The position numbers and the translations under genes were made by a program. From Methanobacteriota archaeon (lineage in GTDB: Archaea; Thermoplasmatota; Poseidoniia; Poseidoniales; Poseidoniaceae), in contig PBUZ01000071.1 of the NCBI GenBank assembly GCA_002728035.1, positions 1 to 18,255 on the forward strand: DNA of 18,255 nt. The letters are read 5' to 3'. Positions 4,499-17,942 of the stretch are shown in pieces (within the stretch, counting starts at the first letter, position 1; each line of letters opens with the position of its first letter). The notes beneath the pieces were generated by a model. It made no database searches. It saw nothing but the letters and a program-made list of their open reading frames with translations, and was not told the DNA's origin.

Positions 4499-6661
4499 AT
4501 GAACTTGCAACGAATGCTCGCGTTCTTGGTGCTTGCTTTGCTGATGGGGCCGTTAACGGGTACCTTGGTCACTGACCAAGAACCGGATGGTTGGACGGCG
4601 CTCGACGAAGAGGGCTTCCAGTGGACACCCAACGAATTCAGCATGGATGTTCCCGAACAAACGGTTCCTGCCTACGTGGCGGACAACACGCCTTGGTGGG
4701 AGCGCACCTCACTCGACCAAAATCGAAACAACATCCATGACAGTTTGGAAACCTTCGAAGGCATCACGGGTATCGGTCTTTCGTACGGCGTGGAGGTCGA
4801 TGCAGAACATCTTGCCCAACTGGACCTCATGAACCTCAGCGTGGTCGACGTCATTGAATCGGTGAACGCCGTACTGCTCGGTCAGGTCAACGCCAGTTTG
4901 GTCTTCGAACTTGCAGCGCTTGAGGATGTGGTGATGGTGGAACGCTACGGAAGTGTCGTGTTCTACGGCGACATCCAAACGCCTGCTGTGAAAGCACGCA
5001 ACTCCAGTCTTTACCCCATGGGTGCTTGGGATTTGGGATACACGGGTGCTGATGTGAACATCGCCATGGTGGATACGGGTGTTGACAACGAGCACCCTGG
5101 ACTGAATCAGAAATTCATCGCAGGTTACGACGCCGTGTGTTATGTTCACACCGACCCGCTCTGCACGGCAGGTGGGGCGCGGGAAACGGACGGAACCTAC
5201 GATCCGGACGACGGAAACCAACACGGAACGGCCTGCATGGGCATGGCTGCCGCAACGGGTATCGATGCCAGCGGTGCACAAACGGACTTCTACGGTTCAG
5301 CCCCCGACGCTGACTTGATCGATGTGCGCATCGGCACGGACTTGGGCGCCGGCCCGTTTGAGAACTACCTCATTGAGCAGGAGTTCTATGAATCGGCCAT
5401 GAACGGCCTCCAGTGGATCATCGACAACAAGGACACGGCTTGGCAGGGTGCGGATGAGGAAAGCTACGGCATTGACATCATTTCGTTGTCTTGGGGAATC
5501 ACCTCTCATGAGGGCGGTGGCTCGGACGGTGAGGACATGCACAGCCGCATTCTGAACGAAGCCATGGAAGCCGGTGTCGTGGTCAGTGCCGCAGCCGGAA
5601 ACGACGGGCCCGACAACGACGGGCTTTCGGGTATGGGCTCCTCCAGCTTGTCCATCACGGTGGGTGCGACCGATGACCAGAACACCATCGACCGAAGCGA
5701 TGACACCGTCGCCTCCTATTCTTCACGTGGAGAACGCAGGGACAACGGTGACGGAAATCCCCTCAATGAATTAAAGCCCGAAGTATCAGCACCTGGTACC
5801 AACATCGTCCAGGCAGAAGGTTGTGTTACCTCAGGAGGTTGCCTCAACGTTGTAGGCGGTTCAGCGGAAGACAACGGCTACACCGGGCGCGGTTCCGGTA
5901 CGTCCTATGCTACGCCAGCCGTTTCGGGCATCCTTGCCATGATGATCGAAGCGAATCCCGATCTGAGCACGGCGGAGATGAAGGAGATTCTCAAGTTGAC
6001 AGCCGAACGCCGTGGTGAGCCTTCTGCCCCGGATGTGGACCCCTTTTGGAACCGTGATTTCGGCTGGGGCATGGTGGACGCCTATGAGGCGGTATCGCTG
6101 TCCATTTACATGCGAGACAACGGATTAACCGGCAACGTGGATGTCACCTCCCAAGTCCACGTGACGAACGCAAGTCTGAACGCTTCCACCGGATTGTTCG
6201 AAGTCCGAGGTCTTGCTTGGGGCCAAGCCGGAACCATCTCCGCTGTTGAAGGACGCATCGATGGAGGCGCTTGGATGCAAGCCACCTACGAATCTGTTGA
6301 AGGCGGTCTGGCTGCATTTGATCGGTTTGAATGGGTGATTGCCATCGATGCATCGACGCTCGCTGAGGGCAACCACACGCTCGAGATTCGAGGCCTGAAC
6401 GACCAAGGAACCCCATCGCTCCCGGTCTTTGTCACCTTTGCGGGCGACGGAGAGCGTGGGGCATCGGTTCTGGGATTGAGCGGTGACCTCTTCATGTTCG
6501 CTGGCCTTGGTTTGCTGGTGGCGCTCCTCATCGTCTTCGCAGTTGGCGGGCGCATTGACCCACCGCTTCAGTTGGAAAGCATCGCTCAAAAGGCGTATGT
6601 GCAAGCCAGTGTGGTCGATGCCATTCTCGTCGTGGAAGACGAGGAGAAGTCTTCGACATGA
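4499..6661 (+). CDS. Secreted, membrane-anchored subtilisin-like serine protease (S8)
   Basis: A 720-residue protein. A signal peptide covers about 1-23 (hydrophobic LAFLVLALLMGPLTG). A propeptide-like region follows to about 170. The S8 catalytic domain has Asp192 (MVDTGVDNEHPGL), His242 (GNQHGTACMGMAAA), oxyanion Asn368 (AAAGNDGP) and Ser469 (GTSYATPAVSG). A beta-sandwich region at about 545-650 is followed by one membrane span at about 660-683 and a 37-residue cytoplasmic tail ending in acidic residues. It should act on the outer face of the cell membrane, degrading protein or processing surface proteins. Two Cys pairs (C214/C222, C442/C448) may form disulfides. The ATG at 4499 follows an in-frame TGA at 4493. 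GAGGG abuts the ATG and is too close for a normal SD, so the message may be leaderless. Confidence 0.92.
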   Translation: MNLQRMLAFLVLALLMGPLTGTLVTDQEPDGWTALDEEGFQWTPNEFSMDVPEQTVPAYVADNTPWWERTSLDQNRNNIHDSLETFEGITGIGLSYGVEVDAEHLAQLDLMNLSVVDVIESVNAVLLGQVNASLVFELAALEDVVMVERYGSVVFYGDIQTPAVKARNSSLYPMGAWDLGYTGADVNIAMVDTGVDNEHPGLNQKFIAGYDAVCYVHTDPLCTAGGARETDGTYDPDDGNQHGTACMGMAAATGIDASGAQTDFYGSAPDADLIDVRIGTDLGAGPFENYLIEQEFYESAMNGLQWIIDNKDTAWQGADEESYGIDIISLSWGITSHEGGGSDGEDMHSRILNEAMEAGVVVSAAAGNDGPDNDGLSGMGSSSLSITVGATDDQNTIDRSDDTVASYSSRGERRDNGDGNPLNELKPEVSAPGTNIVQAEGCVTSGGCLNVVGGSAEDNGYTGRGSGTSYATPAVSGILAMMIEANPDLSTAEMKEILKLTAERRGEPSAPDVDPFWNRDFGWGMVDAYEAVSLSIYMRDNGLTGNVDVTSQVHVTNASLNASTGLFEVRGLAWGQAGTISAVEGRIDGGAWMQATYESVEGGLAAFDRFEWVIAIDASTLAEGNHTLEIRGLNDQGTPSLPVFVTFAGDGERGASVLGLSGDLFMFAGLGLLVALLIVFAVGGRIDPPLQLESIAQKAYVQASVVDAILVVEDEEKSST

Positions 6662-13290: not shown

Positions 13291-13358
13291 CCTCACCATG
13301 AGCAAGCGTAGGGTTCAAGATGCACGCAACCTCGCCTTGAATGCCGGAGGGCATCATC

Positions 13359-14981
13359 ATGTATGGAAACGGACAGGCACCCATCTTCATTCTCAAAGAC
13401 GGAACGCAACGCACCCGTGGTCGAACCGCTCAATCCAACAACATCGCGGCAGCAAAAGCCGTCGCCGATGCGGTTCGTTCAACCCTCGGGCCCAAGGGCA
13501 TGGACAAGATGCTCGTTGATTCCATGGGTGACGTGGTCATCACCAACGATGGCGCGACCATCTTGAAAGAAATGGACATCGAGCATCCTGCTGCAAAGAT
13601 GATCATCGAAGTTGCCAAGACGCAAGAACAACATTGCTTCGACGGAACAACATCAGCGGTGATCCTCTCTGGAGAATTGCTCAAGCGAAGTGAGGATCTT
13701 ATCGAGCAAAACGTCCACCCAACCGTGATTTGCGAGGGCTTTCGACTCGCCGCAGAACGGGCGATTGGTTTGCTTGAGGGCCACGGTATTTCCACAGAGA
13801 ACGCCGATGCCGTGTTGCAAGAAGTTGCAAAGACGGCGTTGACCGGTAAATCTGCAGGTGCTGTCAAGTCGTTCATGGCCGACATTTGTGTTCGCGCCGT
13901 GAACGCCGTCGGGGTGGTCGAAGACGGTGAGCGTTTGGTCGACCTTTCCGATATCAAGGTCGAAAAAAGGCAAGGCGGTTCCATCAAGGATTCAACCCTC
14001 ATCGACGGTATCCTTCTCGACAAAGAGCGCGTTCATGCAGGTATGCCCCGAAGTGTAAGCGATGCGAACATTGCCTTGGTAAACTCGGCCATCGAGGTCA
14101 AGAAGACGGAAGTGGATGCAAAGATTCAGATCACCGACCCCAACCAGTTGGCTCTCTTCCTTGAAGAAGAGGAGAACTATATCCGAAACTTGGTCAACAC
14201 CATCGAAAAGGCCGGCGCAAACGTCCTGATCTGCCAGAAAGGAATCGATGAATTGGCACAACACTACCTTTCAAAGAAAGGCATTTTCGCCGTACGTCGT
14301 GCCAAAAAATCCGACATGGAAGCCTTGGCAAAGGCCACGGGGGGTTCCATCATCACCAACCTCGAAGACATGGGCAAGGATGACCTTGGCCACGCTGCCC
14401 GCGTTGAGGAGAAGAAAATTGGCGATTCGGACATGACATTCATCACCGGATGTCCCGAAGCAAAATCCGTTTCCGTGCTCCTGCGAGGCGGCACCGAACA
14501 CGTAGTGGATGAAATCCGCCGTGCCTTTGATGACGCCGTCGGTGTGGTTTCCGTAGCCTGGGAAGACGGGGCGGTCTTGACGGGAGGTGGAAGCGTTCTC
14601 GCAGCCCTCTCGCGTGATCTTCGCACCTACGCAGAAACGGTGGGTGGACGGGAACAAATGGCGATTGAAGCCTTTGCATCAGCGCTTGAGATCATCCCGC
14701 GCACGCTGGCAGAAAACGCAGGTTTGGACCCTGTGACCACGCTCATTGAGTTGCGCAAAGCCCACGCTGATGGCCAATCGCATGCGGGCATCAATGTCTA
14801 CGAGGGCGGCGTGGTTGACATGAAGGAGGGGAACGTTGTCGAACCTCTTCGCGTGGTCGAGCAAGCCATTCAGTCGGCGACTGAAACGGCCATCATGATT
14901 CTGCGCATTGACGATGTCATTTCCTCCAAGGGTGTTCCGATGGACGAAGGCATGGGCGACATGGGCGATTTCCACATGTGA
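13359..14981 (+). CDS. thsA: Thermosome subunit (group II chaperonin)
   Basis: 540 residues from ATG 13359, chosen because GGAGGG (13346-13351) sits 7 bases upstream as SD; the in-frame ATG at 13341 lies before that SD. The protein subunit forms double eight- or nine-fold rings that fold proteins with ATP and a built-in lid. Visible family motifs: the N-terminal [17 protein letters not shown], the ATP-binding [12 protein letters not shown] (41-52), ITNDGATIL (61-69), FDGTTSAV (94-101, containing catalytic-type Asp95), and GGGSVLAAL near the C-terminal equatorial half. The tail [14 protein letters not shown] is a short acidic version of the usual GGM-rich end. The residue before Asp95 is Phe, where nearly all group II chaperonins carry Gly (GDGTT). 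Only one subunit gene is in the window, so whether the ring is homo- or hetero-oligomeric cannot be said. Confidence 0.96.
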
Positions 14982-15110: not shown

Positions 15111-17075
15111 ATGGCAGTCGTCGCAAAAGTATGGATCGATGAAGACTGCATCACCTGCGATGCGTGCGAAGACATCTGCCCTGAAGTGTTCAAGGTCACC
15201 GACGATTCTTCACAAATTTTGGCAGCGGTGCGTACCGACGGTACCTTTGACCGAAACGTCGGGGGCTCCCCATTGGTGGGTGATTTGGGTGCTGAACTTG
15301 GTGACATCATCATCGAAGCAGCCGAGGCTTGCCCAGTGGAGGTCATCAAATACGAACTCGTGACCGAGGGCGCCGCCGAAGAAACGGTTGAAGCCGCCCC
15401 TGCTGCCGTGGAAGCCGCTGCTCCTGCGGCCGCCGCCGCTCCTGCTGCTGGCGCTTCGGACGCACTGAACGCTGTGTTTGCAGGTGACCGTAGTCTCAAC
15501 ATCCTCTTTGGCTCCCAAACTGGAAACGCCGCAGGTCTCGCAGAAAAGACTGCAAAACTCGCAGCCAACTACGGATTGGAAGCCAATGTCGTCGACATGG
15601 ACGGTTTTGACCCTGCTCGTTTGGCGAGCATGAAGCGCGTGATGATCATCACCTCAACATGGGGCGAGGGTGAAATGCCTGACAACGCAGACGCCATGTG
15701 GAATGCAATCAACGCCAATGGCCCTGCATTGGCCTCGGTTCACTATTCCGTTTGTGCGATTGGCGACACCTCATACGACGAATACTGCAAAGCAGGTCAT
15801 GATTGGAACCAAAAACTCGCGGCACTCGGCGGCCAAGAAGCCTTCCCCATTCAGGAATGCGACGTGGACTTTGAACCTCCGTGGAAACTGTGGGTTGAGG
15901 AAGCACTCCCGCGCTTGGCTTGCGTTGACGAATCTGGAACCCTCCAAGTTGAACTTCTCGAAGAGATGAAGGCCTACGGAGCGGGTGACGATGACGACAT
16001 CGTCGAAGGCGATTTCTCCCCAGGCATCATTGTTCGAGAGGACATCAACATCACCTTGGAGATTTTCCGCTACTGTCCCGAAGCTGCCGAATCCGGTTGG
16101 GACACCTTGACTTGTGCTGTCCCAGGACACGCCACGGTTGAGGATGTGTTGCTCACCATGCAGCGAGAGGTTGACGGCAGCCTTGCCTTCCGACGAGGCG
16201 GTCAAGTCGGAACGCCAACCACGGGTGTGCGCGTCAACGGTCGCATCACGCTTGCAGACAGCGCCATGGTTGGCGACCTTGTGAAGGAAGGAGGCCGTCT
16301 CCGTGTCGAGCCACTCCCCGGCCATCCCGTCGTGCGAGATTTGGTGGTTGACACCAGTCGCTATGAAAGCCATCGAAGCCGTGCCGAACCATGGATGCGT
16401 ACCGACCCTCGTGAAGGCGAGCGCCTCCCCTCTGGAATGGCCATGGGCACCATGGAACCTGCCATGGCCACCGCCTTGCATCAAGCGGGCAATATCGCAT
16501 CTTTCCAACTGATTCAGGCCATGTCCGATACGCTTCCTCATGACCCTCATTACGAGGGTCCTGGTGTTCACTTCCAACAATGGCTCCGCGTCATCGACCC
16601 AAGAACCTCTGAGAAGCAACGACGCACCATCATGACCTCGCTCCAAGAAAAGGACGGCGTTTGGTCTGAATCCGATCATGCCAGTTTGATGCGTTACGGT
16701 GAAGACGGCCGACTGGCAGCACGTGCTCTCAACGAAGCACGCGGTGCTTTGCTCAATCAACACCGGTACGCTGGTAAGCCAGGCCGCCTCGTGAAGTGGT
16801 ACGGCCGCAGTGTGAAATGGTCGGGTAACGTGAATGAAACAACCCTCTACCGACAGGTCTTGGGGCCCTTGGGACTGGTCAGCAACATCTTCAGCGGCGT
16901 ATCGGCTCGCATGGCCCTTGCGTTTACTCGCAACGGTTCTCCACCCATTCGTAGTCTCCAAGCCCTTCTCGTTCCACCAGCAGGTCTTGGGCGCATCCCG
17001 AAAATGTTCAACAGTCGGGTAGAGGACTATCACGAGGTCGTGAGTTTGTTTAACGAAATCGATCAGCGGTTCTGA
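15111..17075 (+). CDS. Ferredoxin-flavodoxin-SdhB-like fusion lacking SdhB cluster ligands
   Basis: 654 residues. Residues 1-83 are a single-[4Fe-4S] ferredoxin (C13-x2-C16-x2-C19-x3-C23-P and distal C74-P). Residues 84-118 are an Ala/Pro linker. Residues 126-272 are a flavodoxin domain with phosphate loop GSQTGNA (134-140), STWGEGEMPDN (182-192) and CAIGDTSYDEY (215-225). From about 302 the sequence follows succinate dehydrogenase/fumarate reductase iron-sulfur subunit: LEIFRYCPE, LAFRRGGQ, VRVNGRITLA, PLPGHPVVRDLVVDTSRY, HYEGPGVHFQQWLRVIDPR. The [2Fe-2S] motif CxxxxCxxC is replaced by GGQVGTPTT and the last ligand (usually LAC) by LAD. The C-terminal [4Fe-4S]/[3Fe-4S] motifs are also absent: there is no cysteine after C335. 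Residues 550-654 have no clear match. The SD is GAGGT at 15100-15104. It forms an operon with the HdrB-like gene. Electron transfer through the SdhB part is not possible by the usual route. Confidence 0.88.
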   Translation: MAVVAKVWIDEDCITCDACEDICPEVFKVTDDSSQILAAVRTDGTFDRNVGGSPLVGDLGAELGDIIIEAAEACPVEVIKYELVTEGAAEETVEAAPAAVEAAAPAAAAAPAAGASDALNAVFAGDRSLNILFGSQTGNAAGLAEKTAKLAANYGLEANVVDMDGFDPARLASMKRVMIITSTWGEGEMPDNADAMWNAINANGPALASVHYSVCAIGDTSYDEYCKAGHDWNQKLAALGGQEAFPIQECDVDFEPPWKLWVEEALPRLACVDESGTLQVELLEEMKAYGAGDDDDIVEGDFSPGIIVREDINITLEIFRYCPEAAESGWDTLTCAVPGHATVEDVLLTMQREVDGSLAFRRGGQVGTPTTGVRVNGRITLADSAMVGDLVKEGGRLRVEPLPGHPVVRDLVVDTSRYESHRSRAEPWMRTDPREGERLPSGMAMGTMEPAMATALHQAGNIASFQLIQAMSDTLPHDPHYEGPGVHFQQWLRVIDPRTSEKQRRTIMTSLQEKDGVWSESDHASLMRYGEDGRLAARALNEARGALLNQHRYAGKPGRLVKWYGRSVKWSGNVNETTLYRQVLGPLGLVSNIFSGVSARMALAFTRNGSPPIRSLQALLVPPAGLGRIPKMFNSRVEDYHEVVSLFNEIDQRF

Positions 17076-17084
17076 GGTGTAAAA

Positions 17085-17942
17085 ATGGCGAAAATTGCGT
17101 ACTACCCCGGAAATGTCGCACGAGCGGGTGCTTACGAAGTTGAAGACTGTATTCAACCGCTCTGCAAAGCCCTGAACATTCAATTGGTTGAACTTCCAAA
17201 AGCCAGCAGTGACGGTGGAAACGTCATCAAACAGGCTACGCCCAAACTCCAGGACGCCCTTGTGGCCCGTAACCTCGCCTTGGCAGAGGCCAAAGGGTTG
17301 GACATCATGACCACGTGTGCCACCAGCCACGCCATCATGTGCAACACGGCTGATGACATGAAGCGAGACCCCGTCTATGCAAGCACCATCAACAACCTCG
17401 TTGCACGAACATCAAAGGTCGAGTATACGGGTGAAACGCAATCTCGCCACCTGCTGCACTACCTCGTCGAAGAAATCGGTCTTGACGCCGTTCGCGATGC
17501 GGTCAAAAACCCGCTGAACATGAAGATTGCCGCCTATTATGGCCCTGACATGCAACGCGATGGCGCTTGTGCAGGCGACGACCCCTTCATGCCGACGTAC
17601 ATGGAACAACTCATTGAGGCATTGGGAGGGACGCCGGTTGACTACGATTCAAAGTGTTCAAGCGTCGGCTCAACATCCATGCTCACCCTTGAGGACTCCT
17701 CCCTCGCCATGACGGCTGCGGTTCTTTCCGATGCCATTGAATCGGGGGCCGAACTCGTCGTCAGTGCCTGCACCGTCTCCCACATCAACTTGGATTCCTA
17801 TCAATCCAAGGCTGGTCGCGTGAGCGGAAAGAACACTTCTGTGCCTGTGAGTCATCTCTCCGAAATCGTTGCCTTTGCTCTTGGCTACTATCCAGACCGG
17901 CTCCCACAACTGCGGACCCGAGTTCGTCTCATCGGTTCTTGA
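17085..17942 (+). CDS. HdrB/SdhE-like CCG-domain protein with degenerate CCG motifs
   Basis: 285 residues, the normal length of HdrB. Two repeats of the CCG (cysteine-rich) domain are plain: IAYYPGN...VELPKASSDGGNV...DIMTTCATSHAI and IAAYYGPD...VDYDSKCSSVGSTSM...VVSACTVSHINLD. In functional HdrB each repeat supplies five cysteines to a non-cubane [4Fe-4S] cluster. Here repeat 1 has Asn10 after YYPG, Ser42-Asp43 for Cys-Cys, and Ser81 for the last ligand. Repeat 2 has Pro154, Ser193-Val194 and Ser232. Only C78 and C229 remain at ligand positions (C191 is offset). Such clusters should not assemble. The SD GAGGTG (17074-17079) overlaps the stop of the upstream fusion with a 5-base spacer, so the pair is co-translated, like the SdhB and CCG parts of TfrB or archaeal SDH. 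Its 3' end overlaps the convergent gene by 14 bp. Confidence 0.88.
   Translation: MAKIAYYPGNVARAGAYEVEDCIQPLCKALNIQLVELPKASSDGGNVIKQATPKLQDALVARNLALAEAKGLDIMTTCATSHAIMCNTADDMKRDPVYASTINNLVARTSKVEYTGETQSRHLLHYLVEEIGLDAVRDAVKNPLNMKIAAYYGPDMQRDGACAGDDPFMPTYMEQLIEALGGTPVDYDSKCSSVGSTSMLTLEDSSLAMTAAVLSDAIESGAELVVSACTVSHINLDSYQSKAGRVSGKNTSVPVSHLSEIVAFALGYYPDRLPQLRTRVRLIGS

Follow-up and report, generated by a model that had tools for sequence, protein, structure and literature searches.

What becomes of an electron-transfer arm when the residues that hold its iron–sulfur clusters are lost and its genes are kept? The question is raised by two adjacent genes, here called A and B, in an 18,255-nucleotide stretch of archaeal DNA (hereafter the window; contig PBUZ01000071.1 of GenBank assembly GCA_002728035.1) from a member of the Poseidoniaceae, order Poseidoniales (Marine Group II). 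Gene A encodes a fusion protein with a part resembling SdhB, the iron–sulfur subunit of succinate dehydrogenase (SDH), and gene B a subunit resembling SdhE and HdrB. The source genome, of which the window is one contig (C71), has 1.84 Mb and is 80.5% complete.

Genes A and B lack the ligand sets of five clusters

Gene A (15111–17075) is an intact open reading frame (ORF) that combines an N-terminal single-cluster ferredoxin domain (residues 1–90; 15111–15380), a CysJ-type flavodoxin domain for flavin mononucleotide (FMN) (approximately residues 128–300; 15492–16010), an SdhB-like body (approximately residues 311–560; 16041–16790) and a C-terminal tail (residues 561–654; 16791–17072). Gene B (17085–17942) encodes 285 amino acids. 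Both ORFs are open over these coordinates, lie with all their parts on the forward strand and share one frame, with a TGA stop and three codons between them. Pfam profiles recognise Fer4_13 (residues 9–80), Flavodoxin_1 (131–253, E = 2.4e-26) and Fer2_3 (315–418) in A, and CCG in B. Among the NCBIfam models, A matches cysJ (1.8e-35) and SdhB-type families, and B matches CoB_CoM_SS_B and MFR_anch_SdhE; the SdhB-type matches shown for A and all those shown for B fall below the curated cut-offs.

We compared A with the intact SdhB of a locus of the same phylum (L103) in which the genes for SdhA (identified by eye), SdhB and SdhE are adjacent and all ligands are present. The 12 cysteines of this SdhB, in three groups of four, align in A with G, T, T and D (residues 364, 368, 371 and 383), with I, F, I and S (462, 465, 468 and 472) and with E, H, L and G (520, 523, 526 and 530). 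None of the 12 former ligand positions of the body is therefore a cysteine, as the original prediction, made from the letters of the window, had claimed. In B, the ligand positions of the former N-terminal CCG site (residues 10, 42, 43, 78 and 81; 17112–17327) read N, S, D, C and S, and those of the C-terminal one (residues 154, 193, 194, 229 and 232; 17544–17780) read P, S, V, C and S. Each domain retains a single cysteine, the first of its CxxC motif, in place of the complete set that both domains of an SdhE or HdrB would have. The prediction that B keeps both CCG repeats and reads SDG and SVG was correct for the two CCG-type domains but not for the repeats, neither of which reads CCG. In the window, none of the five clusters has a full ligand set left in A or B. 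The ferredoxin domain of A has all four of its expected ligands (C13, C16, C19 and C74).

The loss is order-wide and the genes are under purifying selection

The loss is not peculiar to the source genome. When 27 representative A proteins were aligned with the L103 SdhB, 11 of the ligand columns were free of cysteine and the twelfth had one in a single row. A larger alignment of the last 360 residues contained 202 rows (152 distinct): the window, 81 loci that we chose across genera rather than at random, and 120 database proteins, the best 120 of 1283 and all near the window. No cysteine occupies any of the 12 columns in 198 of these rows, and one does in the remaining four; one column is mostly gap (193 of the 202 rows). 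Two residues at old ligand columns, S472 and E520, are invariant in all 202 rows, and most of the other columns vary among unlike residues.

For B we aligned the window, 109 of the same 120 database proteins (those below 270 amino acids were left out) and, from the loci, ORFs of 260–320 amino acids or tblastn pieces, counting identical rows once. The resulting 180 distinct rows comprise 170 from the order (149, one with a gap at position 10, 13 and 7) and 10 from the outgroup. The C-terminal set is lost, save for the first CxxC cysteine, in all 170, and these agree with the A rows that the loss extends through the order. The N-terminal set is likewise reduced to its first CxxC cysteine in 150. 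Another 13, of a derived type and all from loci of family f2, keep two of the five N-terminal ligands, and 7 have all five; the outgroup rows have all ten. We take families f1 and f2 to be the Poseidoniaceae and Thalassarchaeaceae, and f3, of the sister order, to be Marine Group III. No sampled lineage retains any of the three SdhB sites or the C-terminal HdrB site.

Gene B was found in 257 of the 292 genomes of the order, in 21 of its 22 genera and in all 35 genomes that are at least 90% complete. The median dN/dS was 0.045 for the ferredoxin (5 pairs), 0.030 for the flavodoxin (18), 0.028 for the SdhB body (13), 0.017 for the tail (24) and 0.024 for B (14), computed from pairs with 0.05 < dS < 0.8, which all fall within f1 and are the few that are not saturated (5–24 of 253–2016); dS against the window alone is mostly saturated. 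Purifying selection on both genes is strong. The original prediction itself had named pseudogene decay or assembly error as a caveat, and the simultaneous loss of many motifs speaks for it. The breadth of B, the low dN/dS and the concordant rows throughout the order lead us to reject this explanation, to which we give practically no chance; the listed B matches are nearly all free of stops, and close proteins exist in separately sequenced metagenomes. The change to a complex (nearly) without clusters is thus selected and order-wide in both partners, as predicted, with no sign of decay. That all these sites were lost under purifying selection implies that the SdhB–HdrB architecture is useful beyond the conduction of electrons.

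The clusters were probably lost in steps

An early-type B that retains its N-terminal site survives in part of the order. With such a B as query, 21 of 256 B-bearing genomes matched at E ≤ 2.6e-114, the next best match being at 1.4e-95. Among these 21 loci, 20 have all five N-terminal ligands and one (L151, outside the 170-row set) has four, having lost the first CxxC cysteine; a further genome (G226) gave a weaker match only, perhaps to a piece of an early-type B. We inferred a tree of B from 54 of the 180 distinct rows, chosen by us and rooted at the midpoint. In this tree the outgroup forms one side of a branch and the early type a grade, two forks of which are below the starred level, and the derived types of f1 ("SDG", 100/98) and f2 ("SCG", 100/99) are each a single group, joining at 100/99. 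Because at least 21 of the 256 genomes keep the N-terminal HdrB site with the other four sites gone, the simplest reading is that the loss was stepwise, the N-terminal HdrB site having disappeared later in most lineages. The five losses do not always go together, and on this point the original interpretation needs changing. Homologues with an intact CCG site, which had been named as a possible sign of sequencing or assembly error, exist at one of the five sites, and they represent an old intermediate rather than an error of sequencing. These intermediates, together with the frequent exchanges of ferredoxin and flavodoxin described below, make the order of events testable.

Origin from an SdhABE-type succinate dehydrogenase

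Sequence comparison indicates that A and B descend from the SdhB and SdhE electron-transfer arm of an archaeal SDH of the SdhABE type. Outside the order, B finds its best matches in proteins from f6 genomes (35% identity for the top five), and the SdhBs of three loci (L103, L104 and L107) carry a C-terminal extension with which the tail of A aligns. PMC2680327 describes, for the SdhABE type, a second [4Fe-4S] cluster in SdhB and an SdhE without predicted transmembrane domains. A and B share with such (E-type) succinate:quinone oxidoreductases and 8-methylmenaquinol:fumarate reductases the same two subunits, the adjacency of their genes and the homologous tail; they differ in having no adjacent SdhA (the four syntenic loci that were read showed none), no ligand sets and a ferredoxin/flavodoxin module fused on the SdhB side. 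Similarly, window B is distinguished by its incomplete CCG sets from HdrB, the B subunit of CoB–CoM heterodisulfide reductase (PDB 5odc, 8rvu, 8rvy, 8rwn and 7bkb), and neither an HdrA nor an HdrC gene was seen beside A and B in the syntenic loci read. Thiol:fumarate reductase subunit B (TfrB) joins an SdhB-like and an HdrB-like part, and A matches its model NF004898 at 1e-07, below the cut-off. Unlike TfrB, which carries both parts and their clusters in one polypeptide, A and B are two genes with a TGA between them, are free of these clusters and have an N-terminal carrier module.

The source genome has an SDH of its own, encoded by a separate operon of SdhA and SdhB on another contig. Its canonical SdhB (L064) has cysteine at 11 of the 12 ligand columns; an intact SdhB, whose presence the original prediction had proposed to check, is thus found elsewhere in the genome. 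As the SDH is a separate operon, the old SdhB/SdhE pair seems to have been freed for another use. Among 39 relatives, the SdhB family model gave 37 matches at E ≤ 2.3e-31, one piece at a contig end and one genome with none (the cysteines were checked for L064 only); with the L103 SdhA as query, SdhA-like matches, which were not individually inspected, occur in all 39. In three of these relatives (G003:C24, G026:C27 and G222:C3) an SdhA-like gene matches the SdhABE-type query over its full length (36–37% identity, E ≤ 4.1e-82), that of G026 being close to the SDH operon. No cluster-free relative of A was found in the sister order, where A matched 8 of 14 genomes over the flavodoxin stretch only; for B, the six f3 genomes listed yielded a single weak match (2.1e-5). 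A literature search listed no paper whose title or abstract opening concerns this cluster loss. According to PMC6336850, complexes I and II of Marine Group II are canonical; its main text contains no SdhB, flavodoxin or heterodisulfide term.

The N-terminal carriers are exchangeable

The N-terminus of A is not constant. Over the 81 loci it consists of ferredoxin plus flavodoxin in 43, of two flavodoxins in 32 and of one flavodoxin in 6. The 32 comprise 28 assigned by motif and four of 721–726 amino acids that were moved over from the single-flavodoxin class, two of them on their N-terminal sequence and two on length alone. Four of the six single-flavodoxin loci were checked for a small separate ORF upstream; three had none and the fourth had one that looks unrelated. 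The intact ferredoxin/FMN module of the original prediction is thus present in the window, where the ferredoxin ligands are complete, but its ferredoxin is not a constant part of A. Mapped on a quickly built tree of the body, the architecture requires 19 changes (shuffles, mean 30.2; the starred branches force 12–13), the type of B four and the family label one.

The identity profiles of A have a mosaic appearance. Between L083 and L084, two loci of one genus (genomes G016 and G111), identity is 70/65% in the flavodoxin, 83/67/63/72% along the body, 54/52% in the tail and 49% in B. Between L083 and L087, which belong to different genera, the values are 68/60%, 48/59/50/66%, 77/72% and 74%, and between L084 and the window they are 92/89%, 55/69/46/52%, 84/82% and 66%. 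In L083 and L084, the carrier, the body, and the tail with B seem to be blocks of different histories within one genus. The tail of A and B appear to travel together, and we take their shared pattern of identity as a sign of a physical interface.

A possible cluster-free counterpart in Helicobacter

We modelled A and B as a single read-through chain. The model matches SdhB folds, in the body of A, and appears to match HdrB folds; it also matches PDB 3kwl, an uncharacterised Helicobacter protein, over 460 residues. We located the corresponding gene through a Pfam accession and confirmed it by the match of 3kwl to a 497-amino-acid ORF of Helicobacter cetorum (L254), a close homologue (E = 1.3e-243). 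Pfam lists DUF5644 and HdrB-like_C for this ORF, plus Fer2_3 below the cut-off, and its first 234 residues are free of cysteine; in Helicobacter pullorum (L256) the SdhB-like and HdrB-like halves are separate adjacent genes. The likeness to A and B would lie in the two kinds of part, in CCG ligand columns without cysteine (in all three Helicobacter rows, L254–L256, which have 14–16% identity to B and an uncertain alignment) and in the loose model match over both halves. The difference is that the Helicobacter ORF is bacterial and has no ferredoxin/flavodoxin module. The Pfam models PF18712 and PF22196 both have a listed match in L254 but none at E ≤ 1 in A or B. A profile search with A (profile A1) did not return 3kwl among 31 PDB sequences at E ≤ 10, and the same profile gave only matches in the SdhB range in two of three Helicobacter genomes and none in the third. 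The early-type B of the Poseidoniales, with its intact site, makes an independent loss in Helicobacter the simpler and most likely reading. In PMC9570263, HP0468 is listed only as a "DUF5644 domain-containing protein". This protein is probably 3kwl, for which the comparison would provide a first evolutionary reading.

Possible respiratory partners

In f3 genomes, a flavodoxin–ferredoxin gene adjoins genes for a CCG protein and for HdrC-like, cytochrome b-like and Rieske-like proteins (identified by eye), and 12 long flavodoxin matches of the sister order are 45–50% identical to the flavodoxin of A. In a related operon at two sister-order loci (L162, 9004–13651; L163, 228–2534), the HdrB-like protein has a gene of its own and a flavodoxin is joined to a dicluster ferredoxin; in genome G299 there is a second flavodoxin copy about 19 kb away. 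The source genome contains an operon (L173; G000:C99, 31–4578; also seen at L172 and L174) encoding cytochrome b (PF00033), a Rieske-like protein (TIGR01416, below the cut-off) and a fusion of 936–937 amino acids that joins a membrane part to intact HdrC-like and HdrB-like (TfrB/GlpC-type) parts. The HdrB part of this fusion is strongly matched in 25 of 30 relatives (E ≤ 7.4e-68), and the operon perhaps encodes an unusual variant of complex III. In a database protein (P0342), NuoC of complex I is fused to a flavodoxin of this type, which shares 60% identity with the one in L163. Such associations suggest that A–B may bring its carriers to complex I or to the HdrBC-like complex.

Candidate function and alternatives

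We see about an even chance that A–B, as a cluster-free scaffold, keeps exchangeable electron carriers tethered to a partner in respiration. The SdhB–HdrB body would no longer conduct electrons itself; it would be a rigid support for soluble carriers, the FMN of the flavodoxin together with a [4Fe-4S] ferredoxin or a second flavodoxin, and would dock them to a partner such as the Rieske/cytochrome b/HdrBC-like complex or complex I. With exchangeable flavin carriers in place of fixed clusters, less iron would be needed in the surface ocean. Tentatively, a fuller history may be proposed, in which the wire was stripped of iron stepwise: at first three SdhB clusters and one HdrB cluster, then the second HdrB cluster and lastly, in many lineages, the fused ferredoxin, exchanged for a second flavodoxin. 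Proteins with two flavodoxins and a derived B, which have no recognised iron site, would then be an iron-sparing redesign, and the cluster-free body of Helicobacter an independent case. If true, this bears on the low-iron respiration of abundant archaea of the surface ocean. Overall, selected loss and an intact SdhB elsewhere are what remain of the earlier interpretation, from which the joint loss of all sites and the constant ferredoxin have to be removed.

Several observations weigh against the scaffold and its history. A and B adjoin a thermosome gene and not a respiratory operon, and the binding partner is only inferred. The structural model joins two chains by a four-residue read-through linker, and more than half of its tail has a predicted local distance difference test (pLDDT) score below 50. 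Foldseek superposes it loosely on 3kwl (rmsd 10.4 over 651 columns, TM 0.56/0.70), so that the relative placement of the halves and their contact surface are not established. The shared history of the tail and B could be explained by plain linkage. The tree behind the carrier exchanges is a quick one that leaves 22 of its 79 branches open, and like architectures still group together on it more than they do in the shuffles. Since 20 of the 21 early-type genomes keep one full ligand set in B, a cluster or zinc may still work there. The iron-saving motive is conjecture.

Three rival explanations remain. The emptied pockets may have been reused, with S472, E520, their neighbours and the leftover cysteines of the CCG domains binding a metabolite or a metal and A–B acting as a flavodoxin-driven regulator or enzyme. 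The invariance of the two residues and the retention of the first CxxC cysteine in both domains of all 170 order rows (L151, outside this set, lost the N-terminal one) favour such reuse, but most other old ligand columns vary freely in kind and the Pfam and NCBIfam scans recognised no known ligand-binding family in the body or in B, which leaves it rather unlikely. We hold it to be unlikely, too, and a step below pocket reuse, that A–B is an assembly factor or decoy that holds or matures true iron–sulfur subunits (of SDH or of the Rieske/cytochrome b/HdrBC-like complex) with electrons from its ferredoxin or flavodoxin. Both SdhB and an HdrBC-like fusion do occur intact in the genome, and the body, as modelled, would keep both folds without clusters; however, synteny ties A–B to neither complex, and we know of no assembly factor of this kind. 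It is very unlikely that A–B remains a conducting relay, binding clusters or zinc through non-cysteine ligands in the body or a metal in the N-terminal CCG domain. The N-terminal set is whole or nearly so in the early-type genomes and partly kept in the 13 derived f2 rows, but in the window the 12 body columns have no cysteine and two of the motifs read I/F/I/S and E/H/L/G.

Neighbouring genes

Upstream of A lies a thermosome subunit gene (13341–14981, forward strand; Cpn60_TCP1, 4.3e-181), whose synteny is conserved and which we do not regard as a member of the complex. The order thermosome, A, B, helicase and ribosomal protein genes (the last two named by eye) is the same in four loci (L053, L055, L057 and L060). 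PMC6741140 shows the same gene order at a Marine Group II locus under other gene names, and its available portion mentions neither an SdhB/HdrB ancestry nor a loss of clusters there. Our analysis would correct misleading annotations of the A/B locus. Elsewhere in the window, positions 4499–6661 encode a long, secreted-looking protein with subtilase-like motifs (identified by eye).

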